NCBI RefSeq assembly: GCF_949628265.1
Contig: NC_088787.1
Coordinates: forward strand, 858,501 to 922,500
Reading direction: 5' to 3'
DNA length: 64,000 bases
Origin: Cloeon dipterum
Taxonomy: Eukaryota; Arthropoda; Insecta; Ephemeroptera; Baetidae
This document shows, in pieces, positions 3,001-64,000 of this stretch. Within the stretch, counting starts at the first letter, position 1; every line of letters starts with the position of its first letter. Position numbers and translations under genes: made by a program. The notes below the pieces were generated by a model. That model worked only from the letters and a program-made list of their open reading frames with translations. It had not been told where the DNA came from and ran no database searches.

Positions 3001-3764
3001 TATTTTTTCTATTTTTCAAGAACGAGTAGGTTGAGAAAAATATTTCAGGAAAATATTGGCAAGTGGAAGAGCGTGACTTACAAGAAATCTATGGGTAGAT
3101 ATCTCACTGTGGATTCGCTCAAGCCTGGAACGTCTTACTTAATCCGTTTTGAGTGGAGTTCGCCAAACCACCCCTCAATCGAGGCCAAAACCATAGAGCA
3201 GGAGACGAGACCCTGCATCGCAATTGGTAAAAATATTTTTTAAGTTATATTTTTCTTATATCCAATTTCTTGCCGAGTACAAATACAGAAACCGTCATGT
3301 GCGTCATTAAACCAGCCAAATATAATTCATTTTTTACAGATAAAAACACGGTGGAGATGAAATTCGAGGCGCCATTAACCGCAGTGGCAAATTGGCGGCC
3401 GAATGCTCTGCATCAGCTGGAGGAGTTGTGCCACTGGCAGAGGATTACGGTGACCTCGGGTAAAAAGACCCTACTAAACATCAGGGTATTTGAACCGTCG
3501 CTCAGGTGGGACCTTTCTCCGTGCGAACCCGGCCGTGAATTCGTCTTCAGACTGCAAGACGAGCAGGGAAACTCAATTCAGACGAACGGCACGTGCTCGC
3601 TGCCCAGCCACGAAAGAGACGCGAAATTCTCCTCAACCTCCCGCTGGGCTAACCTGACGCCAAAGGCCGTTTTTGGCACGCTCCTGATTTTCGCATTTAT
3701 CTATTCCCTCTTCTACTGCGCGCATAGAATGGCAATATGTGCTTCTTGCTGCTTCTCTCCTTGA
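1..3764 (+). CDS. EGF-like/fibronectin-III-like type I membrane protein, 3' part
   Basis: Fourteen exons close in phase: 1-98, 157-221, 722-1045, 1094-1192, 1332-1439, 1493-1636, 1692-1807, 1860-2049, 2100-2405, 2466-2498, 2549-2827, 2878-2999, 3049-3226 and 3340-3764, giving 828 residues. The 5' end and any signal peptide lie outside the window. Exons 5-6 encode a Cys-rich EGF-like stretch (CFGGYSGEKC, then CSGNSFGMDC). Exons 7-13 carry fibronectin-III-like modules (NLTPNTDYEIAF, SLKPGTSYLIRFEW), several ending in a C-R-P-I linker. N-glycosylation sequons are frequent. The last exon ends in a hydrophobic helix (VFGTLLIFAFIYSLFY) and a short Cys-rich tail (ICASCCFSP), so a cell-surface protein without a cytoplasmic signalling domain is inferred. 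I do not recognise the family. For exon 7 the acceptor at 1690-1691 keeps the frame; the nearer one at 1697-1698 does not. Two broken inverted copies of the 3' end lie at 17.3 and 19.2 kb. Confidence 0.8.
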
Positions 3765-43792: not shown

Positions 43793-45365
43793 ATGCTGTC
43801 GAGCGTCACGAGAGTGGTGGGCCGACTCCTGCCGTCTGCAACTGCAACTGCGTCCAGAGCCATGGCCACCAAGACGATCCCTTTGTCCGACGACTTCCTC
43901 TTCAGACAGGTGAAAATCCGGAAAAGCTGGCCAATAGGGGCCACGCTTGGGCCCCTCGACTGAATCCGTTCCCTATCTTTCAATGTTAAAAAATCAGCAA
44001 AGTTGCGAATTTCAGCGCCAAACCCGAGCAATCGATGCGTTTAATCGCGGGGAGGCATAAAATTAAGTCAGAAACTAAATCCAGCCCATAGGTAAATTTA
44101 AAAAAATTAAAACCCTTCACTTAAAAAACATTGCAGACTTTAGGGGGCGTGGGCTGAGGGGGCGGGAGGGTGCAGTTTTTGATTTCATTCGACGCGGAAT
44201 ATTACGGCGAGTATAAAAAACTTTGGTTTTTTTGTTCTACGACCCATAGGAGCCGAGTTATTAATTTTTACAAGTCGAAAAAAAATTGCAACATTTCAAA
44301 ATTTTTGTTTTCTGGGCCCTATTGGCCTGACGGCGCTGATTCAAGTATCAATCGACGCCCCTTGGTGAGGCGCGTCTGCCCGTGTGCAATTTGTCAAAAT
44401 CGGAACATTTTTCGAATTTTAAAAAACTAATTTCTGCCAAATTTTTGGAAAAGTCAAAAATTTTAATGCAAAATTTTGGACCAGGCCAAAAATTTTAAAC
44501 ATAAATCCCTCAATCGACGCGAAATTTAGCAAGGATAATTTTGACACCAAATACAAGCCGAACCGATCAAAATTATGAAAAAAACTTGTTTTTTTGCATT
44601 TTTTCCGGACGGACAACATAGAAAATCGAAAATTTGCGATTTTTTTTATAACGGGGCAAATTTAAAGGGTTTTATTGACTCCATCGAACGCGTAAAGCTA
44701 CTGCTGGTCTGGAAACCGATTTTGAGATTTTTCGCGCCCATAGAAAAATTAAAATTAATTTTTTTCTGTTTTTTCGACTTCGCGATGTTCTCGGTCAAAA
44801 TGGTTTTATTTTTGTTTAAATTCGGCCGTTCGTCCGATCGTCGACCACGACCCCTCATTGGACAGGTCTCAGACAGGGCTTTAACCTGCGGTACCCTGAC
44901 GACCTTTTTCAGGGTACCTCGACCTGATATATGCTCCTAAGCCTTTTTTTCATGCCTTTTCACTAATTTCAAGCACATTTTTACCCTAACTCTTCACTGA
45001 CCTTCCTCAGGTCGCGTGACCTGTTGATTTTTTGTGATTTTCCGGCTCGGTTGCCTATATTTGAGTCTTTAGGTCAATTTCACAGTTGCCCGAAGGTCTC
45101 AAAAGACGAAATTTTTAATATTTTTTTTTATAATTTTCAGGTTTGACCGAGACGACGGTTGGCGAGGAGAAAAAGTTCAACGCGCGGCTGACGAAGCCTC
45201 TGAAGGAGTTCGTGGACATCATGGACAACCTGAACCTGCCGTACCCCAAGATGATTGGTTAGTTTTTTACCGTTCCGGCTCGAGTGGCCTCTTACTTAAT
45301 TGTTTTTTTCTTAATTCGCAGATAAGGCCGTGCCCGCCAACCGCGTCTGCGGCCTTCAGTTCTGA
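43793..45365 (+). pseudogene. ETHE1 pseudogene lacking exons 2-4
   Basis: Exon 1 (43793-43909) is intact: [38 protein letters not shown]. Fourteen bases into intron 1 the sequence jumps to the middle of intron 4. The junction reads CCGGAAAAGCTGGCC, whereas the parent has CCGGAAAATTC and CCCAAAGCTGGCC, an AAA microhomology. Exons 2-4, which carry every metal ligand, are gone. Exon 5 (45141-45257) and exon 6 (45322-45365) survive with intact splice sites. Splicing exon 1 (phase 0) to exon 5 (phase 1) gives GTT TGA, an immediate stop. The product would be a mitochondrial-targeting-like peptide of about 40 residues. Confidence 0.9.
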
Positions 45366-45510
45366 TAACAACGCACGCAGAGTCTATTTTACGCCTGTTA
45401 TCGCATCAAATGCGCCTCCTGTTCAAATTAGGCCACTGAAGTGTGATTTCTCGCACTAAACTTGTGATAAGCAGTATTTTACTTGGTTTTTAAAACCAGA
45501 TTATATTTTA

Positions 45511-47940: not shown

Positions 47941-48212
47941 CGGCAACGCAACCTTGAGAGGAAATGGCAACGCTGGGCATAAGGCAAGCATTGTACAGTG
48001 TTTTTTCAAGGTCGAGCTAAAAAAAAGGGCCGGGATCCGCCCCCGGCAAGCTTATTAAAAAAGTATCGGTCGATACTCTGGGCGACACTTCGATATTGTA
48101 CCGTGAGGTGGGGTGGATTACGTCATTGTTTTTTTTTAGCTCGACCTTGAAACACTGTACAATGCTTGCCTTATGTCCAGCGTTGCCATTTTCTTTCAAG
48201 ATTGCGCGGCCG
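47941..48212. repeat. Inverted repeat upstream of the NACHT gene
   Basis: The left arm (about 47941-48028) and right arm (about 48129-48212) are imperfect inverted copies: GGCAACGCTGGGCATAAGGC and GCAAGCATTGTACAGTG, then TTCAAGGTCGAGCTAAAAAA, read back on the right arm. Inside, GGATCCGCCCCC (48034-48045) is the inverse of GGGGGCGGATC (47929-47939), so two inverted repeats are nested. A decayed terminal-inverted-repeat element is likely. Confidence 0.65.
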
Positions 48213-48969: not shown

Positions 48970-51900
48970 ATGCCTGATAGGCCAGCCAATGTAGGATATT
49001 TTCTGTCGAAAAACCAACCCAAACAAGACGCAGACAAGTATAACTATCGTAGAAAATATCCGACAAAATTAAATCAAAACCTTAATTATCAGTGTTTGTG
49101 TCCTCGTCGTTCATTACAACTTTGAAGAAACAAAGATCGAAACCTGGATTCGGAGAGGTGATGGTCAGGACGTGAAGAATCTGAAACGGACCTTCGAAGA
49201 GAATCGTAACTGCAACTTCCACAGTATTTTGTCACCAGAAAAAGGTGAGTTGCTCGAACTTCTCTCCGATCAAGAAAAACTGCTAGGATTATTTGGCTGT
49301 TCAGGTAAAACGAATCACTGTTCGATAAATTGTGTTCCATCATAGTGATTTTACAGATGTTCCATCAGTGTTTGTGCTTTACATTCTTTCTCACGGCCAC
49401 AGAGATGGAATAATCTTCACAGACCACTTCAAGGACGATGTTCGCGTTGAAGATCTGGCCAGCAGTAGGGACCCGAAAGAGTTGTTCGTTTCCTTCACAA
49501 CAACCGAGATATTCGAGTCTCTGAACAAGCTGACCGGTTTTGAGGAATGTCTGAAACTAATTAACTTTGGTGTAAGTCCTTGATTAAATCTCCGAAACTT
49601 GTATCGAATTAATTTATTTATATATAGCCATGTAGAGGAGAACTGGCAGACAAAATTTTCGACCCGAATGAAAAATACATCGAATACAACAACGAAAATT
49701 CTTGCCGAATAACCTACATCCCTTGGATGAAGAACACGGTTGTGTTCTTCTCAACGGTCGAAAGTAAAACTTTTGTCAATATAAATTTTATTAATTAATT
49801 TGCAATACCATCCTCAGCGACCTTGGCCAACAGAGACCCGTCAGCAGGAACACCTTTTGTCCACCATTCTTGCGATGTTTTTAATTCGCTTGAGAAGGAC
49901 GAGAGTCTCGTTAATGTCCTGACAACTATTCAATATGAGATTCACGCAAGTTACACAGGACAAACACCAGAATTCAAGATGTCTTCGCAGGACAGAAGTT
50001 TCGTCTTCTCAAAGTGAGTTTTCGTGATTTTACAAGATTTCCCTTGGGTTTTAGGACCTATATAGGCTATCAGGGTTCGCAAAAACCCGCATTTTTCCGA
50101 AAACACTCACTGCATTGCAAAATACTGTTTTGTGCTGGTTTTCCTGCAATTTTGCGCATTTTTCCGAAACACATGCATTCTTATGGAAAATAAAAAATTC
50201 TTATGATGGATGACCAAAAATAGATTTTCAAAATTACTAAAATCAGTATTAGAGCCAATGGTCCCACCAAGAGACTGAAAATTTTAACTCTCAACGTAAT
50301 TTTCTGAAATTGCAGACTCTTTTCGAGCGAAAATTGACTATTTTCGGGTTAAATTTTGAAAAATTCGAAAAACCCAAAACTGGTGGGTTTTTCCAGCCGG
50401 TTTTTTGCGCAAAAAACCAGAGGTGTATTTTTGGCGCATTGGAAAATTGGCGAACCCTGTAGGCCATCAGCTAAGTGATGAAAAATTTTGTTTTTCAGAA
50501 GTTTTACTGACTCATCTGCCTCAACATTCGACGCTAAAAGCAACAAAATGGATAAGAAACGCGGTTTTTACTCTTGGAAGTCAAGCTCTGGGGAACACTT
50601 GCGACACCGCCTTGCGTTCTTATTTTCCGCAGAGCCAAATAAGCAGTTGGAAGAAATTAGAACATCGCTGTCCGAAAACTTAAATTTTGAGACCAGCGAA
50701 ATGAAGCTGAGTGGAACGCCGTGGACGTCCATTAATAAAGGTTGAACGACTTAATTTAATTGAAAATCTGGTAATTATGCAATGCATATTTCAGCCTCGT
50801 GGCGAGACCTCGACATTGGCTGCATTTTCCTGATATTTTTTGGCCTTTTGAGTAAAAACAAAGACACGAATGAGGTTTGCGTGCAGGTGGACGGTCAAGA
50901 AACTGCGGTATCTGAAATACTGCGCGAGTTTATCGGGCCAACGAACGAACAGTGGATTGGAAAACCGAAAGTATTAATCCTTGTGAATCAGGAAACGAGC
51001 TCATTCGACGCAGTAAGTGTTTGGTTTATAGTCAATCTCGAAATATTTCTAGACAAATTAAAAAATGTCTTATTAAGTAAGAAACTCATAATATTTCTGT
51101 TTTAAAGATGGCATCAAAAAGAGCCAGGATGGATATTCCAGCCACAAACCACAGTGGATGGTTAGTCTTTGTCTTGCACAACAAAGGTTAATTTTTAAAT
51201 TTATCCAAATTTGTGAGTTAGTACATGAATTTTCATTAATTTAGCTACACTTCAAAAGCTGATAGAAATCTTCAACGGACAAGATTTGAAAAGAGAGAAA
51301 ACTTTGCAAGAACTGCTCACAAGTCATCTTCTTTCCGAATCAAAAGAAAATAGGGATTTTCTTAACTCGACACTTCAGTATCTCCTCAATTTTCCCGACC
51401 CTTTTGTTAAACCCACCTTCTCAGTTACCAAGCCTAAAAAATCTCGAGAAAAACACATAAGCTTCGACATCTTGATTAAGGAATCGGCAAGAGAAAATAA
51501 GATTTTTATCATGAGTTCAGTCGCAGGAACAGGAAAGACGACAATCCTTAGGGAAATGGCTTTTCAGCTTGGAAAACTAAAACCAGAATCACAAATTTTA
51601 CTCGTTTCCCTGCCGGAAGTTTCGTTCAGCTCTCTAAAGCGGAACGTGAACGAAACTGAATTTCTCGCGAAAGCCACACATAACCCACCAGAGAAAATAG
51701 CCAAGAGCATAGAAAACAAGCTGTGTGTTGTGTTGCTTGATGGGTTCGATGAAATCATTCGTCCTGAAAACCAAGAAACAACACTGAAAGTAATACAAGC
51801 TCTAGAAGAGAAGCAGATATCCGTGTGGATCGGAACGAGACCTCACGCAGCAGAAGCAATCCAAAAGCGGGCATCAAACGCTGTTCTAGTGCAGATTGGT

Positions 51901-54900
51901 CCCTTGGATGAAGAGCAGCAAATCGAGTTATTTCAGCTGGAGACGGGCAAGAGTAAAGACGAAAGTGAATTGTTCATCAAGAACTTCGCATCAAAGGACA
52001 TCTTGAGAAATCCTTTGCACCTTTCTTTGGTTGCCAAGTACGGGGCAGAAGGTAACTTGTACCAAATCTACGACAAGGTTGTGCGACACAAAGTGGAACT
52101 CTCTCTTCGAGACAAGGAAGGATATGACGAGAGCAAAAGGATCGAGTTTAATGAAAAAATTGCCAATGCCATGGGAGATCTCCAAAAGTTAGCAAGTTGC
52201 CACATCAGAGGAGTTAAACTTGCTGATTACACGAAAGACGACCTACAAAAAAACAATTACTATGGCATTGCAACGTTTGAAAACAACAAGGCGAATTTCA
52301 TTCATCAAACTTTCGCCGAATTTCTTGCAGCCCAGTATTTTGTAAGTAATATAGATGATTTCATCACCGACACTGCAAAATTATTTTTCGGGACATCATT
52401 TTCGTGGTGCAGAAAGTTTGTCGATCTGTTCTATTCCACGGTTTTGAATGACAATGAAATAATTAAAGAGCATAGAGCATCAATTCTTAGAGTCATGAAG
52501 TTGAATCCAGATGCATTTTTGGGATTGATTGCTAAAGATGGTTGTATTAATATTTTCAAAATGATATATCCATTTATCACCTTCCGTAAAAACGAAGAGA
52601 GTAATTGCAATTCTGTTGCAAATGATAAGACTCTCTTGGTCAGAGCAATCGAAGGCGAAGCGGAAGAAATTGCTATCATGCTGCTACATTCAGACTTGAT
52701 CAACAGTGATGATGAGATCCTTACAACTTTACCTTTCCTGTTGAGGTCAGTAGCAGAATCAAACGCAACTCTCTTCTTCGAGAAGCTCAGGACAAAATAT
52801 CCTAAATTGCCAGATATGATCGGCTCTAGAAGATTTTGTATAGACGCTGGAGTGATAGCAGCAAGAAAGAATCACGGCGAAATCCTTGATCTTCTGCTCG
52901 AAAGCGGTGTCGACAAAGATTTCGTACATCCTGAGGAAGGAAACGCTCTACATTGTGCTGTCAGTTATGGAGCTTTGAAATGCGTGGAAGTTTTGCTTAA
53001 GCATGGCGTGAAATTAGCAAAATGTGGATTTAGAGAAGAATACTGCAACCCATTGGAAGAGGCTGTTTTAAAAGAAGATGTGAATCAGGTCAAGTTCTTG
53101 TTGGAGAAAAATGTCAATGGACTGCCACGCTACATAGAAATATTCGGAACCAATGAAGATGATACATTTTCGCATGCTCTAAAAAGATATGTTTGTGAGG
53201 GGGGAAGAAACTTTGAATTCATAAAATGTTTATTAAAAGAGGGTCCAAGTTTGAATTACGTGGGAAATGGCTATGAAAATGGTCTTCTACAATTTTTTGC
53301 TGAAAGGGATATTTTTGAAATGTGTGAATGGCTTATTGACGTAGCAGGGCTCGACGTGAACACTTTACGACCAAGTGGAGAACCAAGATTTAGATTGGAA
53401 GAAAAGCGCGTCAATTTATGCATGGAATATTTTCTAATGCTGCAGAAGAGTGACATTAACACGACGGATAAAAGAGGAAAAACTGCTCTTCACTGCGCTG
53501 CGGAACGTGGATATTTTGTACGTGTCCAAAAATTGATCGATTCTAAAGCAAACGTTCGAGCTGTAGACGAAAATGGATGGAATGCATTTCATTTTGCATG
53601 CAAAAGTAACACTGACCAAACAGTAAAAGTCATTCGATTGTTGCTCAACAATGATCGTGAGCTGGCCAAAGTGAAAACCAAAAGTGGTCAAACAGGGCTG
53701 CATATTCTTCTGAAATTCAGCGAGATCAGCGATGAGTCCTTGGTAGAGGGAGCACGTTTTCTGATCCAAGAGATTGGATTAGATGTCAGAGCAAAGGACG
53801 AAGATGGATGGAATGCATTTCATTTTGCTTGCTATAAATACAGTCAACATAAAAAAGAAGTGATTCGATTCTTGCACAGCACTGATAGTCAGCTGGCTAA
53901 GGAGAAAACCGGAAGTGGACAAACAGGGCTGCATATTTTTCTGAAATGCAGCGATGACCACTTGGTTGAGGAACTGTTTTTTATGGTCGAAGAGATTGGA
54001 GTTGACGTAAGAGCAAAGGACAACAATGGCTGCACAGCGTTGCATATTGCATTTGACAAAGGAAATAATTGCGTTTACTATTTGATGACAAAAGATATCG
54101 ACCTGGAAGTAAAAACCAAACGGGGGAGAACGTGCCTTCATGCAGCCGCTCTAAGGGGTGATTTAGAGGCTCTGCAAAATTGGATAGAACTGGGAGGAAA
54201 CTTGGATGTGGTAGATGAAGATGGATCGACTGCGTTGCATTTGGCTTCAGAAAAAGGACATTTGCAATTTGCGAAAAAGCTTTTAGAACGCGCGGCAGAG
54301 GAAGTTAATAATCCAGAAAATGCTAAGGGATCTGTTGGATCCACACTGAAGGAGATCGTGGTGGTAAACAGATGTAACAAAAAAGGAAGGACAGCTCTGC
54401 ACCTTGCTGCTGAATCAGGAAATGTTGATTTGGTGGACATTTTGCTTGAAAATAACGCAGATTTAACCCATACGGACCTTGAGGGAAAGAATGCAATCCA
54501 CTTCGCTATCAAAAACGAAAGAATGTTACGGTTCCTCAATGAGAAGAACGGAGATCTTGTGAATCAGCGTACATTAGATGGAAACACAACTCTACATTTG
54601 GCAATAAACCTCTTTAATAAAGATGACATGAACATCATTCGGTGGATTGTAAATAAAGTAGGCAACAACTGCTTGAACGCAAAAAATGCTTATGGCGACA
54701 TACCACTCTTACTTGCTTGCAAAAACGGGGTGTGGAATGTCGCCGAATTGCTGCTGACCAGAAATGTTGAGGTCAATGTCTCGAACAGGTGGGGAGAAAC
54801 TGCAATGCACTACGCCGCAAGAAAAGGAAACTTGGAATTAATGAGACTTTTGCTTAAGAAAGGTGCGGATTTGACTCGAAGAGACAACAAGGGAAAGAAC

Positions 54901-55854
54901 GCATTGCATCTCTCCGCAGAAAATGGAAACTTGTCTTTAGTGAAGCTGATGCTTGAGAGCGGTGCGGATTTGACTCAAAGAGACAACAAGGGAATGAATG
55001 CCTTGCACCACGCAACGAGACACTTTGAGATATTGTTATTTCTTCACGAGAAAAACGATGGATTGTTGAAACAGCGTCTTAAAGACGGAGACACAACCCT
55101 CCATTTGGCATTAAAAACGTGGGACATTGACACTGACACAATTCTTTGGCTTCATGAACAATGCAAAATTTATATGAATTCAAAAAATAGCGAGGGTGAG
55201 ACACCGCTTCTGCTGGCTTGCAAGTATAGAAGGTGGAATGTTGCTAAAATATTGATGGATAAATGCGTCGATATAAACGTGAAAGATAAAAATGGAAGAA
55301 CGGCCCTGCACTACGCCGTTAGTTTGGATAGATTAGATCGACTTGAAGATTTATTTGCTTTTGATTTGGTGCAAGAGTTGCTCAAAAGAGGCGCAGATTT
55401 AGCGTTGACAGACAACGATGGGATGAACGCATTTCACCATGCGATAACAAACTTTCGCATGGCTTTATTCATTCATGAGTTGAATGGTGATTTGGTAAAA
55501 CAGCGTTTGAACAATGGAGATACCACTTTGCATATGGCAATCAAAATACGCGGATGGAATAGGAATGATGAGTTTCTTGTTTGGCTTGTGGAGCAAGACG
55601 TCGTTGATTTAAACGCAAGAAATGCTTTGAAAGAAACTCCGCTGATTCTGGCTTGCAAGGAGAGGCTCTGGGAATGGCAATGGAAATGCAAATTTTTTGA
55701 AATACTTTTGTCAAAAAATGTGGATGTGAACATAAGAGACATTTGGGGGAAATCTGCTCGTGACTACATAGACGAAACTTGTCCATTTCATTTACTTAAA
55801 AGGTTTGATGAACTTGCAGAAGCTTCACCCAGTAAAAAAATGGGAATGAGTTAA
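48970..55854 (+). CDS. Caspase / caspase-like / NACHT / ankyrin-repeat NLR-like protein
   Basis: Nine exons (48970-49037, 49093-49304, 49357-49571, 49628-49763, 49818-50013, 50499-50740, 50795-51012, 51108-51186, 51245-55854) close in phase to 1991 residues. Residues about 24-275 form a caspase (C14) domain: RRGDGQDVKNLKRTFEE, catalytic His106 in YILSHGHRDG, Cys167 in FGPCRGE (family QACRG) and Arg216 in ANRDPSAGTPF. Residues about 285-480 are a second caspase-like unit: CIFLIFFGLL replaces the SHG His, GKPKVLILVNQET replaces QACRG, and GWLVFVLHN is p10-like. NACHT: Walker A GTGKTT (Lys553), Walker B VVLLDGFDEI (Asp621-Glu625), sensor IGTRP, and FIHQTFAEFLAAQYF in the winged-helix region. About twenty ankyrin repeats fill residues about 1010-1980. 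A cytosolic danger sensor that activates its own protease is inferred. There is no CARD or death domain. The first intron boundary is the least certain. Confidence 0.8.
50071..50459. mobile_element. 389-bp hAT-like MITE in intron 5 of the NACHT gene
   Basis: The element starts CAGGGTTCGC and ends GCGAACCCTG, a perfect 10-bp terminal inverted repeat of the CAGGG...CCCTG type common in hAT elements. The flanks are TAGGCTAT (50063-50070) and TAGGCCAT (50460-50467), an 8-bp target duplication with one mismatch. It explains why this intron is 485 nt while most others in the gene are about 50-95 nt. Confidence 0.75.
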
Positions 55855-57227
55855 ATTCACTTTTTCTTGCCCAGATTTCTGACCTGTTTACTTTTTCTTA
55901 CTCCAACGCTTGATGACTTCAAGCATCGCCACCAACGTAAATGAGGACAGAGAAGGAATAATTAACTCTAATTTAAGTTGGAAAGTGTCAGATGAGTTAA
56001 TATTATTGTATGCATGACGTTTTCAGATTATATATATAGTTTCATAATTTTACTTTATTTTAATTTTAATGCCTGTTTTATACAAAGATTTTAATCAATT
56101 TTATAGAAAATGAGCTTTGTATAACTTTGTTTCATATTTCGAAATAACGAATTTTATATGTTACTTAGGAGTGCAAACATTCTGTATAGATTTTTATGTT
56201 AATAGAGTGTTTTTTAGGGTTATTGGCAGTAGCAATTAATTCTTAAAGAAAAGCGACGGTTAGGAAATTTTTGTGCTTAGAAGAAAATAATTGTATATCA
56301 TGTGTAAATAATAAGAATGGTCTGCTAAATGCTTTTTACAATAAATTGAAATAACTTGTAAAATAAAATTTTGTTAAATTCCTAAAACAGCAATATTTTT
56401 ATAATTCCTTTCTATTTTTTTTAAATCATGTACAAAATCTATTTGATTCCCTGCATGTAAATACGTTTCTTACCTGGTGCCGCCCCTTTGGAAGGTCGGC
56501 TGATTTTCCTCCTTCAAATCTATTCCTGAATCATGAAATTATTTCCTTTGGTTCAATAAACGCGGACGCGTTTGGTTTACTTGAGTAATATTTATTGTTG
56601 TAAATTTTATTTTAAATGCATGGAACAATATCAATTAATTCTTGCACGAGACAAAAGTTTGCTGAGCAATCAGAGTCAATTTTTTCGATTCGAGAATAAC
56701 AAAAAATCCTGAATTTTCTTCTCGTGGAGAGTGAATCTTTATTGTTTTTGGTGCATTGGCACGGAAATATTTAGCGGAGCGGGAAAATTATCGTCCGGAA
56801 AAAGGAACGCTCGAAATTGTTCGATTTTACTGCAAACGTGAAAGATTAGCTATTCTGGCAAATTAACTGGCCAAAAATTGCAATCGTTCTGAAAATATTA
56901 ATTTCTAGCTGCTAAAGTTTATGACGGAAGGTGGCAACGGAATTATCAGGAACGACCTGATTTGTTGAGCCGCAGGATATGACGAAACGATCGAGATAAT
57001 TTTTAGCCGTCTGTCCGGCCGAAATTGGCGGCCAAGAAACGCACATCTTTTACGAAATTTTGGCTCCGTGCTGGCAAACGCAGCGGAATGTCCGGAAATA
57101 AAGCAGGTACCTTTTTCAGGACAGATCCACACACGGTAAGTCGGAGATTCTGGCGACAATTTCATGTTTAGTACCGCGTCCACTTCGTCCGCAGCATCCA
57201 GCATCTATACACTCAGCACTCGCGTGC
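55855..57227. other. NACHT gene 3' flank and unassigned sequence
   Basis: AATAAA near 56340 probably ends the NACHT transcript; another lies near 56556. The rest to 57227 has no gene I can support. A minus-strand frame at 57204-57109 sits between a possible acceptor and donor (see rejected items). Confidence 0.45.
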
Positions 57228-57803: not shown

Positions 57804-60294
57804 ATGCTGTCGAGCGTCACGAGAGTGGTCGGCCGACTCCTGCCGTCTGCAACTGCAATTAGTGCGACCAGAGCCATGGCCACCAAGACGATCCCTCTGT
57901 CCGACGACTTCCTCTTCAGACAGGTGAAAATCCGGAAAATTCATTTCTGAAAGGGCTAGCCGTCTGTCAACGGACCCTTTGCCGCGTCCTGAAGGACGAA
58001 AAGGCCGCAGAGAGCGTTTTATTCGTTGGGAGGCGCCTGGTGAAAGTGGTTCTGATCTGTAATTTAGCCAATTTTCACTTTAAAATCGCTAAAATTCACG
58101 AATGTACCTCGCTCTAATCTGTAATTTCGCTCTTCCATGCACAAATATCGTGGTTCTGTACTGTAATGAGACCAATTTTTCGATTGTGGCAGCTGTTCGA
58201 CCGGGAGAGCTGCACCTACACGTACCTGCTGGCCGACCTGGGCAGCAAAGAGGCCGTTTTGATCGACCCTGTGCTGGAACTGGCCGAAAGGGATGCGCAA
58301 CTCATCTCGCAACTCGGGCTCAGCCTGAAATACGCGAGTAAGGCTTGGAATAAAAGGCGAATTCGGGCCGATTAAATGGATTTTCTGGTTGCAGTGAACA
58401 CGCACATGCACGCCGACCACGTGACGGGCTCGGGAAAGCTGAAGGAGCTGCTTGCCGGCTGCCAGAGCGTCATTTCCAAGGCGAGCGGCGCGCAGGCCGA
58501 CGTGCACGTGGGTGACGCCGAGCTCGTCGAGTTCGGACGGCACCAACTCGAGTGCCGCGCCACGCCCGGACACACCAACGGTGCGATTTCATTGAAATTG
58601 GCCGCCTTTGCAACTGATTTCTTTATTTATGGGTGCCAGGGTGCGTGACGTACGTGTGCAAGGAGCAGGGCGTGGCGTTCACCGGCGACGCGCTGCTCAT
58701 CCGAGGCTGCGGCCGCACCGACTTCCAGGAAGGCAGTCCCGCCACCCTCTTCCACTCGGTCCACACCAAAATCTTCTCGCTGCCAGACGAGTTCAAACTC
58801 TACCCGGCACACGACTACAAAGGTTTTTAATTAATTTATTAACAAAAAACCCAAAGCTGGCCAATAGGGGCCGCGCTTGGGCCTCTCGACCGAATCCGTT
58901 CCCTATCTTTCAATGTTAAAAAATCAGCAAAGTTGCGAATTTCAGCGCCAAACCCGAGCAATCGATGCGTTTAATCGCGGGGAGGCATAAAATTAAGTCA
59001 GAAACTAAATCCAGCCCATAGGTAAATTAAAAAAAATTAAAACCCTTCACTTAAAAAACATTGCAGACTTTAGGGGGCGTGGGCTGAGGGGGCGGGAGGG
59101 TGCAGTTTTTGATTTCATTCGACGCGGAATATTACGGCGAGTATAAAAAACTTTGGTTTTTTTGTTCTACGACCCATAGGAGCCGAGTTATTAATTTTTA
59201 CAAGTCGAAAACAATTTGTGACATTTCAAAATTTTTGTTTTCTGGGCCCTATTGGCCTGACGGCGCTGATTCAAGTATCAATCGACGCCCCTTGGTGAGG
59301 CGCGTCTGCCCATGTGCAATTTGTCAAAATCGGAACATTTTTCGAATTTTAATAAAAATATTTCTGCCAAATTTTTGGAAAAGTCAAAAATTTTAATGTA
59401 AAATTTTGGGCCAGGCTGAAAATTTTAAACCATAACCCCTCAATCGACGCGAAATTTAGCAAAGATAATTTTGACACCAAATACAAGCAGATCCGATCAA
59501 AATTAAGAAATAAACGTGATTTTTTGCATTTTTACCGTACGGACAATATAGAAAATTGAAAATTCGCGATTTTTTTCCTAACAGAGCAAATTCAAAGGGT
59601 TTTATTGACTCCATCGAACGCGCAGAACTACTGCTGCTCTGGAAACCGATTTTGAGATTTTTCGCGTCCATAGAAAAATTAAAATTAATTTTTTTTTCTG
59701 TTTTTTCGACTTCGCGATGTTCCCGGTCAAAATGGTTTTATTTTTGTTAAAATTCGGCCGTTCGTCCGATCGGCGACCACGACCCCTCATTGGACAGGTC
59801 TAAGGCAGGGCTTTAACCTGCGGTACCCTGACGACCTTTTTCAGGGTACCTCGACCTGATATATGCTCCTAAGCCTGTTTTTAAAGCTTTTTCACTTATT
59901 TCAAGCACATTTTTACCCTTGCTCTTCACCGACCTTCCTCAGGTCGCGTGACCTGTTGATTTTTTGTGATTTTCCGGCTCCGTTGCCTATATTTGAGTCT
60001 ATAGGTCAATTTCGCAGATGCGCGAAGGTCACAAAAGACGCAATTTTTAATATTTTTTTTATAATTTTCAGGTTTTACCGTGACGACGGTTGGCGAGGAG
60101 AAAAAGTTCAACGCGCGGCTGACGAAGCCTCTGAAGGAGTTCGTGGACATCATGGACAACCTGAACCTGCCGTACCCCAAGATGATTGGTTAGTTTTTCA
60201 CCGTTCCGGCTCGAGTGGCCTCTTATTTAATTGTTTTTCTTAATTCGCAGATAAGGCCGTGCCCGCCAACCGCGTCTGCGGCCTTCAGTTCTGA
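57804..60294 (+). CDS. ETHE1: Persulfide dioxygenase ETHE1, mitochondrial
   Basis: Exons 57804-57923, 58193-58337, 58395-58580, 58640-58822, 60072-60188 and 60251-60294 close in phase to 264 residues. The enzyme oxidises glutathione persulfide to sulfite and glutathione in mitochondrial sulfide catabolism. An Arg/Ser-rich presequence ([16 protein letters not shown]) precedes a metallo-beta-lactamase fold: [34 protein letters not shown] (His92, His94, Asp96, His97), ATPGHTNG (His148), [17 protein letters not shown] (Asp167) and YPAHDYKG (His208). His92, His148 and Asp167 correspond to the family's iron ligands. The C-terminus has [11 protein letters not shown] and [11 protein letters not shown]. 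The exon 2/3 junction codon reads ATG, giving YAMNTH where the family has YAVNTH. The only intact copy in the window. Confidence 0.95.
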
Positions 60295-62856: not shown

Positions 62857-63271
62857 GTAAGAAATTCCTTTTTCTCGTCAGTCTAATTAGCTCCGTGAAA
62901 ATTGCAAGGAAATTGTTTCGAATATGTTCAAATTTGTTGTTAAATGTGTTGGGAAATTATTATAAAATAATAAATCACTCACGGAGAGACAACAAAATCA
63001 CATTTCCCTGAATACTCTTGCCTGCACTCACGATCTTTATCAAGTATAAGATTGAAACCAAACAAAGATGAAAAATCCCTGTTTTGAATTGTTAAAATAA
63101 TATAATTTAAAATATACTTGGCCTATTAACCACTCAAATTAAGTTATTTATCGTTCGCTGGACGATTTTAATTATTTCATTCGAGTCTGCATCGTGCCTT
63201 TCATAGCATATTCCTTTTTATTTTATTAATCTTATCGTTCTTTTCGTCAAAAGTTTAAAAACGTTAGAAGG
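62857..63271. other. Y11 first intron
   Basis: Presumed intron between the leader donor at 62857 and an acceptor just before the coding start (acgttag at 63261-63267). Nothing else is seen. Confidence 0.45.
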
Positions 63272-64000
63272 ATGACGCCATTCTTCGTCGCCATTTTCTT
63301 GCTCGGCGTTTCATCCCTGGCCACTGGCGTAAACTTCACTCAGGTCTTCGAGTGGCCCGAAGCATGGGACTACGAGTGGCCGTCGGAGGAAAGCAGGGCA
63401 CAGGCCTTGAGAGACGGAACTTTCAAACCAGAGGAATTTAATCCTCGTCACATGGCTGTCTACGGAACAAGGATCTTCATCAGCCTGTCTAAAGAATTTG
63501 GTGACGTTCCGGTGACTCTGGTGACCTTGCCGACGAGCAGTGCGTCCTCCGCACCCCCGAAGCTCACTCCATTTCCTTCGTGGGACATGCATCTTAATGT
63601 AAGTTGCAAAAATAAACGCTACATGGTTCTTTAGCTTGAATCGCATTTCAGAAATGCCAACAAAATTCGATTTGTCATTTTTTTTGCAGGGATCGGAAAA
63701 CTGCGACAAGATCCAAACGGCAGTAGGGCTGCAAGTGGACTCGGTTGGCAGGCTGTGGCTGCTCGATGAGGGGAACGAGACTTGCAATTGCAGTGCCAAA
63801 CTATGGATTTTTGACTTAAACAACAATACAACAGAACTCATTCATCGATTTCCTTTTCACTTCTATATTCACGACTTGGTGATCGACGAAACGGCCAACG
63901 GAACCTTCGCATACATCGCGCGCTGGATGGTTAGCCACTTTGTTGTCTTTAGTTTGGAAAGAAAGCAGTCTTGGTTTGTGGACACGTCAGGAATCGATGT
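63272..64000 (+). CDS. Yellow-like protein Y11, 5' part (runs off the window)
   Basis: Exon 1 (63272-63598) starts with signal peptide MTPFFVAIFLLGVSSLATG and ends FPSWDMHLN, using the 6-nt downstream donor also seen in Y2 and Y7. Exon 2 begins at 63690 (GSENCDKIQTAVGLQ) and is open to the edge, with VDSVGRLWLLDEGNETCNC, LVIDETANGTFAYI and SLERKQSWFVD. It is closest in feel to Y8 and Y10. Whether it keeps the membrane exon cannot be told. Confidence 0.8.

Follow-up and report, generated by a model that had tools for sequence, protein, structure and literature searches.

The caspase-NACHT-ankyrin gene

The 64,000-nucleotide stretch of the Cloeon dipterum contig NC_088787.1 from position 858,501 to 922,500, here called the window, holds on its forward strand a gene at 48970-55854 that, as a genome prediction, very likely joins a caspase unit, a degenerate caspase-like unit, a NACHT ATPase domain and an ankyrin-repeat region in a single chain (Table 1). 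The gene was rebuilt from the window sequence in nine exons with GT-AG at all eight junctions, and the spliced frame of 5,976 nt is open and in phase throughout, giving 1,991 residues. The nearest in-frame stop upstream of the start at 48970 lies ten codons away and there is no ATG between them. The nine-exon, in-phase gene described in the initial annotation was thus borne out, its His106, Cys167, Arg216, GTGKTT and LLDGFDE were all located where it had placed them, and the Pfam search that it had suggested as a check matched C14, NACHT and Ank. Judged from the sequence, that observation is correct but understated: the caspase-NACHT gene is real, but what was seen as one gene is one of about a hundred, and the possibility of a single oddity was rejected on those roughly 100 copies.

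Table 1. Exons, domains and motifs of the gene in window coordinates
Feature	Position	Strand	Content and basis
Exon 1	48970..49037	+	Start Met and N-terminal end of caspase unit; similar peptide in 7 paralogue loci
Exon 2	49093..49304	+	Caspase p20, holds Arg43 (S1 arginine position)
Exon 3	49357..49571	+	Caspase p20; catalytic His106 at 49392-49394 (SHG)
Exon 4	49628..49763	+	Catalytic Cys167 at 49631-49633 (PCRG), intersubunit linker, start of p10
Exon 5	49818..50013	+	Caspase p10; Arg216 at 49832-49834; end motif GQTPE.K
Exon 6	50499..50740	+	Start of degenerate caspase unit
Exon 7	50795..51012	+	Degenerate p20 core; residues aligned to catalytic His and Cys replaced
Exon 8	51108..51186	+	Conserved ATNHSGW segment; possibly p10-like, without profile support
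Exon 9	51245..55854	+	NACHT, helical region, ankyrin repeats, stop
NACHT domain	51520..51933	+	PF05729, E 2.3e-9, 37.7 bits against a cut-off of 26.7
Walker A GTGKTT	51526-51543	+	Sequence, inside NACHT
Walker B LLDGFDE	51733-51753	+	Sequence, inside NACHT
FIHQTFAEFLAAQYF	52297..52341	+	Sequence
Ankyrin-repeat region	52855..55773 (approximate limits)	+	Pfam Ank families, motif count
Candidate polyadenylation signals	56340..56367	+	AATAAA/ATTAAA at 56340 and 56362; one more at 56555; motif only

The ankyrin part of exon 9 was matched by Ank_2 with E 1.9e-125 over 15 stretches, and a motif count gave 17 repeats, so that the "about twenty" of the initial annotation was a reasonable estimate. Inside this part a 99-nt tandem duplication is found at 54815-55007 (1.9 copies, 82% matches), which might supply the sensor with variation. 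The motif FIHQTFAEFLAAQYF presumably resembles the post-NACHT motif of animal nucleotide-binding, leucine-rich repeat receptors (NLRs). The label NLR, which the gene had been given, holds for its NACHT, as in bona fide NLRs; it does not hold for the two ends of the chain, since Pfam lists ankyrin families but no leucine-rich repeats (LRRs) for exon 9, and neither CARD, Death, PYD nor BIR was found by Pfam in residues 1-528, where C14 stands instead. Because a bona fide NLR has LRRs according to the sponge NLR survey (PMC12909245), the protein is strictly a NACHT-ankyrin member of the signal transduction ATPases with numerous domains (STAND). In the NCBIfam and PADLOC collections all matches were partial, falling on the NACHT/P-loop, on the ankyrin part or in families without relation to the gene.

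The N-terminal caspase unit

Residues 24-272 match Peptidase_C14 in Pfam with E 1.4e-12 over profile positions 3-232 of 233, and a caspase-3 chain aligns to positions 3-248 of 253 of the profile with E 4e-10, so the C14 domain spans both p20 and p10. Conservation was followed in a spliced alignment of 14 copies, from which the loci L057, L058, L059 and L063 were excluded and had their motifs read from exon matches or frames. His106 and Cys167 are each invariant in 14 of 14 copies, whereas 57 of the 223 ungapped columns are invariant overall. The four excluded loci all show CRG, and SHG was found in L057, L058 and L063. For L059 the fetched stretch does not reach the His exon, leaving 17 loci in which this residue could be tested; across the 18 loci read, the catalytic His is thus present in 17 of 17 and the Cys in 18 of 18. 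An apparent loss of Cys in L059, taken from a first tblastn alignment, was dropped as the frame shows ACRG upstream. The intact catalytic residues claimed for the window copy are hence supported, as regards the dyad, both by its own sequence and by the family.

In the caspase-3 alignment Arg43 and Arg216 fall on the two S1 arginines and Gly165 falls on the S1 glutamine, positions that we assume to play their usual roles in the S1 pocket. Thirteen of the 14 spliced copies retain Arg43. The canonical S1 triad Arg-Gln-Arg, which distinguishes Asp-specific caspases and does not define the fold, is not found. Since the S1 pocket differs from that of canonical caspases in all aligned copies, cleavage after Asp is not to be assumed, and by this alignment the dyad is constrained and the substrate pocket altered. 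A motif scan of ten caspase-bearing loci elsewhere in the genome found QACRG in L038 and SWRN in L039, too few to compare.

The degenerate caspase unit

No Pfam family was found above cut-off in residues 276-528, and a Pfam caspase match to this unit was absent in all 8 members scanned, which returned four unrelated weak matches (best E 0.042). Eight of the 14 spliced copies were used to build a family profile of exons 6-8. It matches the large subunits of solved caspases, the best being an ancestral effector caspase with E 2.7e-6, and the caspase kinship of the unit is drawn from this match. The match puts IGKPK of the degenerate unit in register with the strand preceding the catalytic Cys. 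In all 14 copies the aligned His position is never His, and the aligned Cys position is Gln, Val or Ile. Because p20 was matched and p10 was not, we speak of a degenerate p20-like unit. The degenerate caspase-like unit of the initial annotation therefore stands for its p20 part, without a Pfam caspase match and without support for a p10.

A family across the genome

The genome searched comprises 190.1 Mb in 10 contigs, and all listed matches are on C1-C5, five contigs of 33-43 Mb. PF05729 gave at least 101 NACHT matches, a lower bound as the best candidates alone were scored, and these concentrate on C4 (46) and C2 (34). Exon 7 of the degenerate unit and caspase exon 3, used as single-exon queries, gave 113 matches each. 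Exon 7 lies on the same strand less than 4 kb upstream in 97 of the 101 NACHT matches (median 536 bp), exon 3 on the same strand less than 6 kb upstream in 93 (median 1,590 bp), and both in 92. Exon 7 was never found within 4 kb downstream of a NACHT match or on the opposite strand (0/101 each), and exon 3 was found within 6 kb downstream in 3/101, cases that perhaps come from neighbouring copies. For 16 of the 113 exon 7 matches the next 4 kb downstream are free of NACHT matches; 11 of the 16 are on C3, where a cluster of degenerate-caspase exons without NACHT match within 4 kb was seen at 8.34-8.63 Mb; these may be diverged or NACHT-less family members.

A systematic sample was taken as every seventh NACHT match by score, 15 loci or 14 without the window's own. 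All of exons 2-8 were found upstream in 11 of the 14, some of them in L057 and in L059, part of which is outside the fetched stretch, and none in L046. Exons 2-8 are also present at four further hand-chosen loci. L046 (C1:9155645-9156121) is the genome's best NACHT match and, showing no upstream caspase exons, may be a different kind of NACHT protein. Prokaryotic contamination or origin was rejected after a scan of genome_contigs with two short caspase-unit peptide patterns, of low sensitivity, in which none of 122 stretches was confirmed.

One gene along the whole chain

A GT-AG pair in the phase of the window gene is available at 113 of 116 paralogue junctions and is the best of the three phases at 112, by a score that slightly disfavours sites far from where the window gene predicts the boundary. 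For L056 the exon 8/9 junction relied on a fragment from further along exon 9 and implied a 585-base intron, so that 111 is safer than 112. With the 8 of 8 junctions of the window included, 124 were tested, 121 available and 120 best. In the close paralogues L051, L060 and L061 exon 2 has to be split by an additional intron; L058 is similar. Among the 14 copies the pairwise distances correlate at 0.95 between the caspase and degenerate units, 0.94 between caspase and NACHT and 0.94 between the degenerate unit and NACHT, values reached in 0 of 2000 permutations. Synonymous divergence is alike along the chain, being 0.528, 0.524 and 0.522 for the window against L053. The conserved order, the splice phases and the correlated divergence together make one gene far likelier than two, and a single mRNA is what we infer. 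The direct fusion of caspase and NACHT in one gene, as first proposed, is accordingly upheld by the closed frame, the paralogue phases, the linked exons and the correlated divergence.

Selection along the chain

The ratio of nonsynonymous to synonymous substitution rates (dN/dS) was estimated by the method of Nei and Gojobori (NG86) in nine pairs, four of which covered exon 9 to its end. In the nine pairs exons 3-5 gave 0.20-0.53, exons 6-8 gave 0.10-0.51, and values at the start of exon 9 were 0.28-0.63. In the four full pairs the ratio was 0.61-1.40 for the part following NACHT and 0.48-0.99 for three later segments, and in 4/4 these values exceed those of the caspase and degenerate units of the same pair. 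Counts of ankyrin insertions and deletions (up to 201 gap columns) were left unused, as the large ones all involve L060 or L065, where the frame ends early. By these estimates evolution is looser at the ankyrin end than at the caspase end, as would fit a receptor whose effector is constrained and whose repeats are freer to change.

Adaptor domains

CARD and Death domains were searched for in the genome with E up to 0.1, yielding at least one CARD and at least 10 Death matches, which are lower bounds since an exon-by-exon search can miss small domains and since the NB-ARC model recovered no insect apoptosome gene. Measured to the closest of the 101 NACHT matches, one of them lies 201 kb off and all the others 2.8 Mb or more. 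Both NB-ARC matches of the genome overlap NACHT matches, and the NB-ARC with CARD that characterises Apaf-1/Dark is not found in the window protein. That the chain has no CARD or death-fold domain, as the initial annotation held, was supported by Pfam.

Surroundings of the gene

About 0.8 kb before the gene, at 47941-48212, there is an inverted repeat of 63-nt arms, 90% complementary, with a perfect inner 23-nt pair, which looks like a small non-autonomous DNA transposon. Open reading frames (ORFs) of the major royal jelly/yellow kind with a common N-terminal motif form an array on both strands at 5236-40000 and again at 63230-64000. The MRJP family of Pfam matched 2 of the 9 neighbouring ORFs scanned, and one short exon of the same kind had no match; from these two ORFs the earlier label of an insect-like genome is plausible. 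The ORFs 45073-45459 and 59860-60243, the first of which has no Pfam match, have a near-identical stretch in common that suggests a duplicated segment or element.

Comparison with known systems

The Apaf-1/Dark apoptosome, like the predicted protein, has a STAND ATPase, which oligomerises to activate a caspase. There, however, the ATPase is an NB-ARC, the caspase is a separate protein recruited by CARD, and the repeats are WD40 or none, as given in PMC2246300, whereas here the ATPase is a NACHT fused to its own caspase unit. Animal NLRs of the NLRC, NLRD and NLRP groups, including those of inflammasomes, likewise carry NACHT between an N-terminal effector and C-terminal repeats and have undergone lineage-specific expansion, but theirs are usually CARD, Death or PYD with LRRs. 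The bacterial metacaspase-NACHT-WD40 proteins, as presented in PMC3501461, also fuse a caspase-fold protease directly to NACHT and a repeat domain; theirs is a metacaspase in one protease unit with WD40, while here an animal caspase is combined with ankyrin.

A dead caspase beside a live one is known from caspase-X of Acropora corals, which according to PMC4715348 has two caspase domains per chain, one without the catalytic His and Cys. The same paper describes that the inactive domain restrains the active one and lowers killing in HeLa cells, that the pair was modelled like c-FLIP/caspase-8, and that there are 4 such proteins in A. millepora and 7 in A. digitifera. Two caspase units, one of them lacking the catalytic His and Cys, share one chain in both cases; here it is the p20 part of the second unit that lacks them. 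The inactive domain comes first in caspase-X and second here, no NACHT or ankyrin is described for caspase-X, and the 4 and 7 proteins stand against about 100 loci.

Among the matches listed from the open-licence literature there was no report of an insect caspase-NACHT family or of the four-part architecture, which does not prove its absence from print. In the paper on the Cloeon genome (PMC7250882) the main text has 0 occurrences of NLR, NACHT, caspase and ankyrin. CASc (caspase) is named in a figure legend on NLR architectures in the sponge survey (PMC12909245), which may mean that a protein with caspase and NACHT has been observed in an animal before.

Proposed function and alternatives

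The reading that we favour, and hold to be reasonably probable from the sequence data, is a single-chain STAND receptor free of adaptors, in which NACHT oligomerisation would activate the protein's own caspase and the dead unit would act as a regulator in cis. As regards the mechanism it agrees with what the initial annotation had inferred. The ankyrin repeats would sense a ligand, directly or as guard of a host protein, upon which NACHT would bind ATP and then oligomerise. This would bring the fused N-terminal caspase units into contact and activate them with no need for CARD or death-domain adaptors, and the activated caspase would cleave substrates leading to cell death or immune signalling. 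Until oligomerisation the dead unit may pair in cis with the active one, restraining or shaping its active site in a manner comparable to c-FLIP/caspase-8.

Several observations weigh against parts of this reading. The S1 glutamine is found in 0 of 14 copies (Gly in 13, Ala in 1) and Arg216 is kept in only 10 of 14, making specificity for Asp at P1 doubtful on the alignment. The p10 half of the degenerate unit gained no profile support even with the start of exon 9 added to the profile, and when the profiles of both caspase units were compared directly no relationship was found (probability 1.3%). If the frame is followed past the exon 5 donor, a stop comes directly behind a complete caspase unit; in the window copy intron 5 (50014-50498) measures 485 bases, compared with 49-132 in 13 paralogues, and contains AATAAA at 50189. 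This intron probably carries an insertion and a transcript may possibly end early in it; terminal repeats of at least 14 bases, though expected, were not found there. A caspase-only isoform of the window copy by retention of intron 5 is possible from the sequence. The selection figures come from few, related pairs, and in L060-L061 the start of exon 9 at 0.63 is not tighter than the repeats at 0.48 and 0.61. Finally, L058 has a frame change in NACHT near Walker B, at 3558-3563 in gene orientation, and is probably a non-functional copy.

The absence of the S1 glutamine in 14 of 14 copies and the loss of Arg216 in 4 of 14 speak for an alternative that we judge to be unlikely, namely one gene in which the caspase fold serves for docking or oligomerisation and has no useful activity as a protease; where the canonical caspase L038 has QAC, moreover, the family has GPC, GSC, GAC or APC. 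Against a docking module stand the catalytic His in 17 of 17 testable loci and the Cys in 18 of 18, compared with the 57 invariant columns out of 223, as well as Arg43 in 13 of 14 and the dN/dS of 0.20-0.53 in the caspase exons. A somewhat slimmer chance is given to an active protease family with a non-immune role, for example in tissue remodelling, transposon control or competition between gene copies: many host proteins are bound by ankyrin repeats, but the copy number, the clustering and the looser ankyrin end resemble immune receptor families, a pattern that is not specific. That two adjacent genes, one for a single or tandem caspase and one for NACHT-ankyrin, were wrongly joined is highly improbable, for although the NACHT-ankyrin part is one long exon that could stand alone, and a complete caspase unit is followed by the stop just after the exon 5 donor with AATAAA inside intron 5, the order, strand, spacing and splice phases are the same in nearly all copies examined, the distances along the chain correlate at 0.94-0.95, intron 5 is short (49-132 bases) in 13 of 13 paralogues, and any phase-2 GTRAG donor would give an immediate stop.

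Implications

Extending the adaptor-free receptor to the whole family, we tentatively suggest that nearly the entire NACHT repertoire, about 100 genes, of an arthropod, probably insect, lineage may consist of self-contained receptor-proteases that unite sensor, ATPase switch and executioner with a pseudocaspase regulator in cis and have an altered caspase specificity. Given an active protease, two questions could be put to the test: whether some insects possess a large NLR-like repertoire, and whether, as the receptor oligomerises, a cis-fused pseudocaspase holds back its active partner or licenses it. If the self-contained receptor-protease is real, one protein would do what an inflammasome or apoptosome does in several. 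If its protease is active, this would be an animal intracellular receptor family executing its own verdict, with about 100 diversified sensors joined to one conserved effector.

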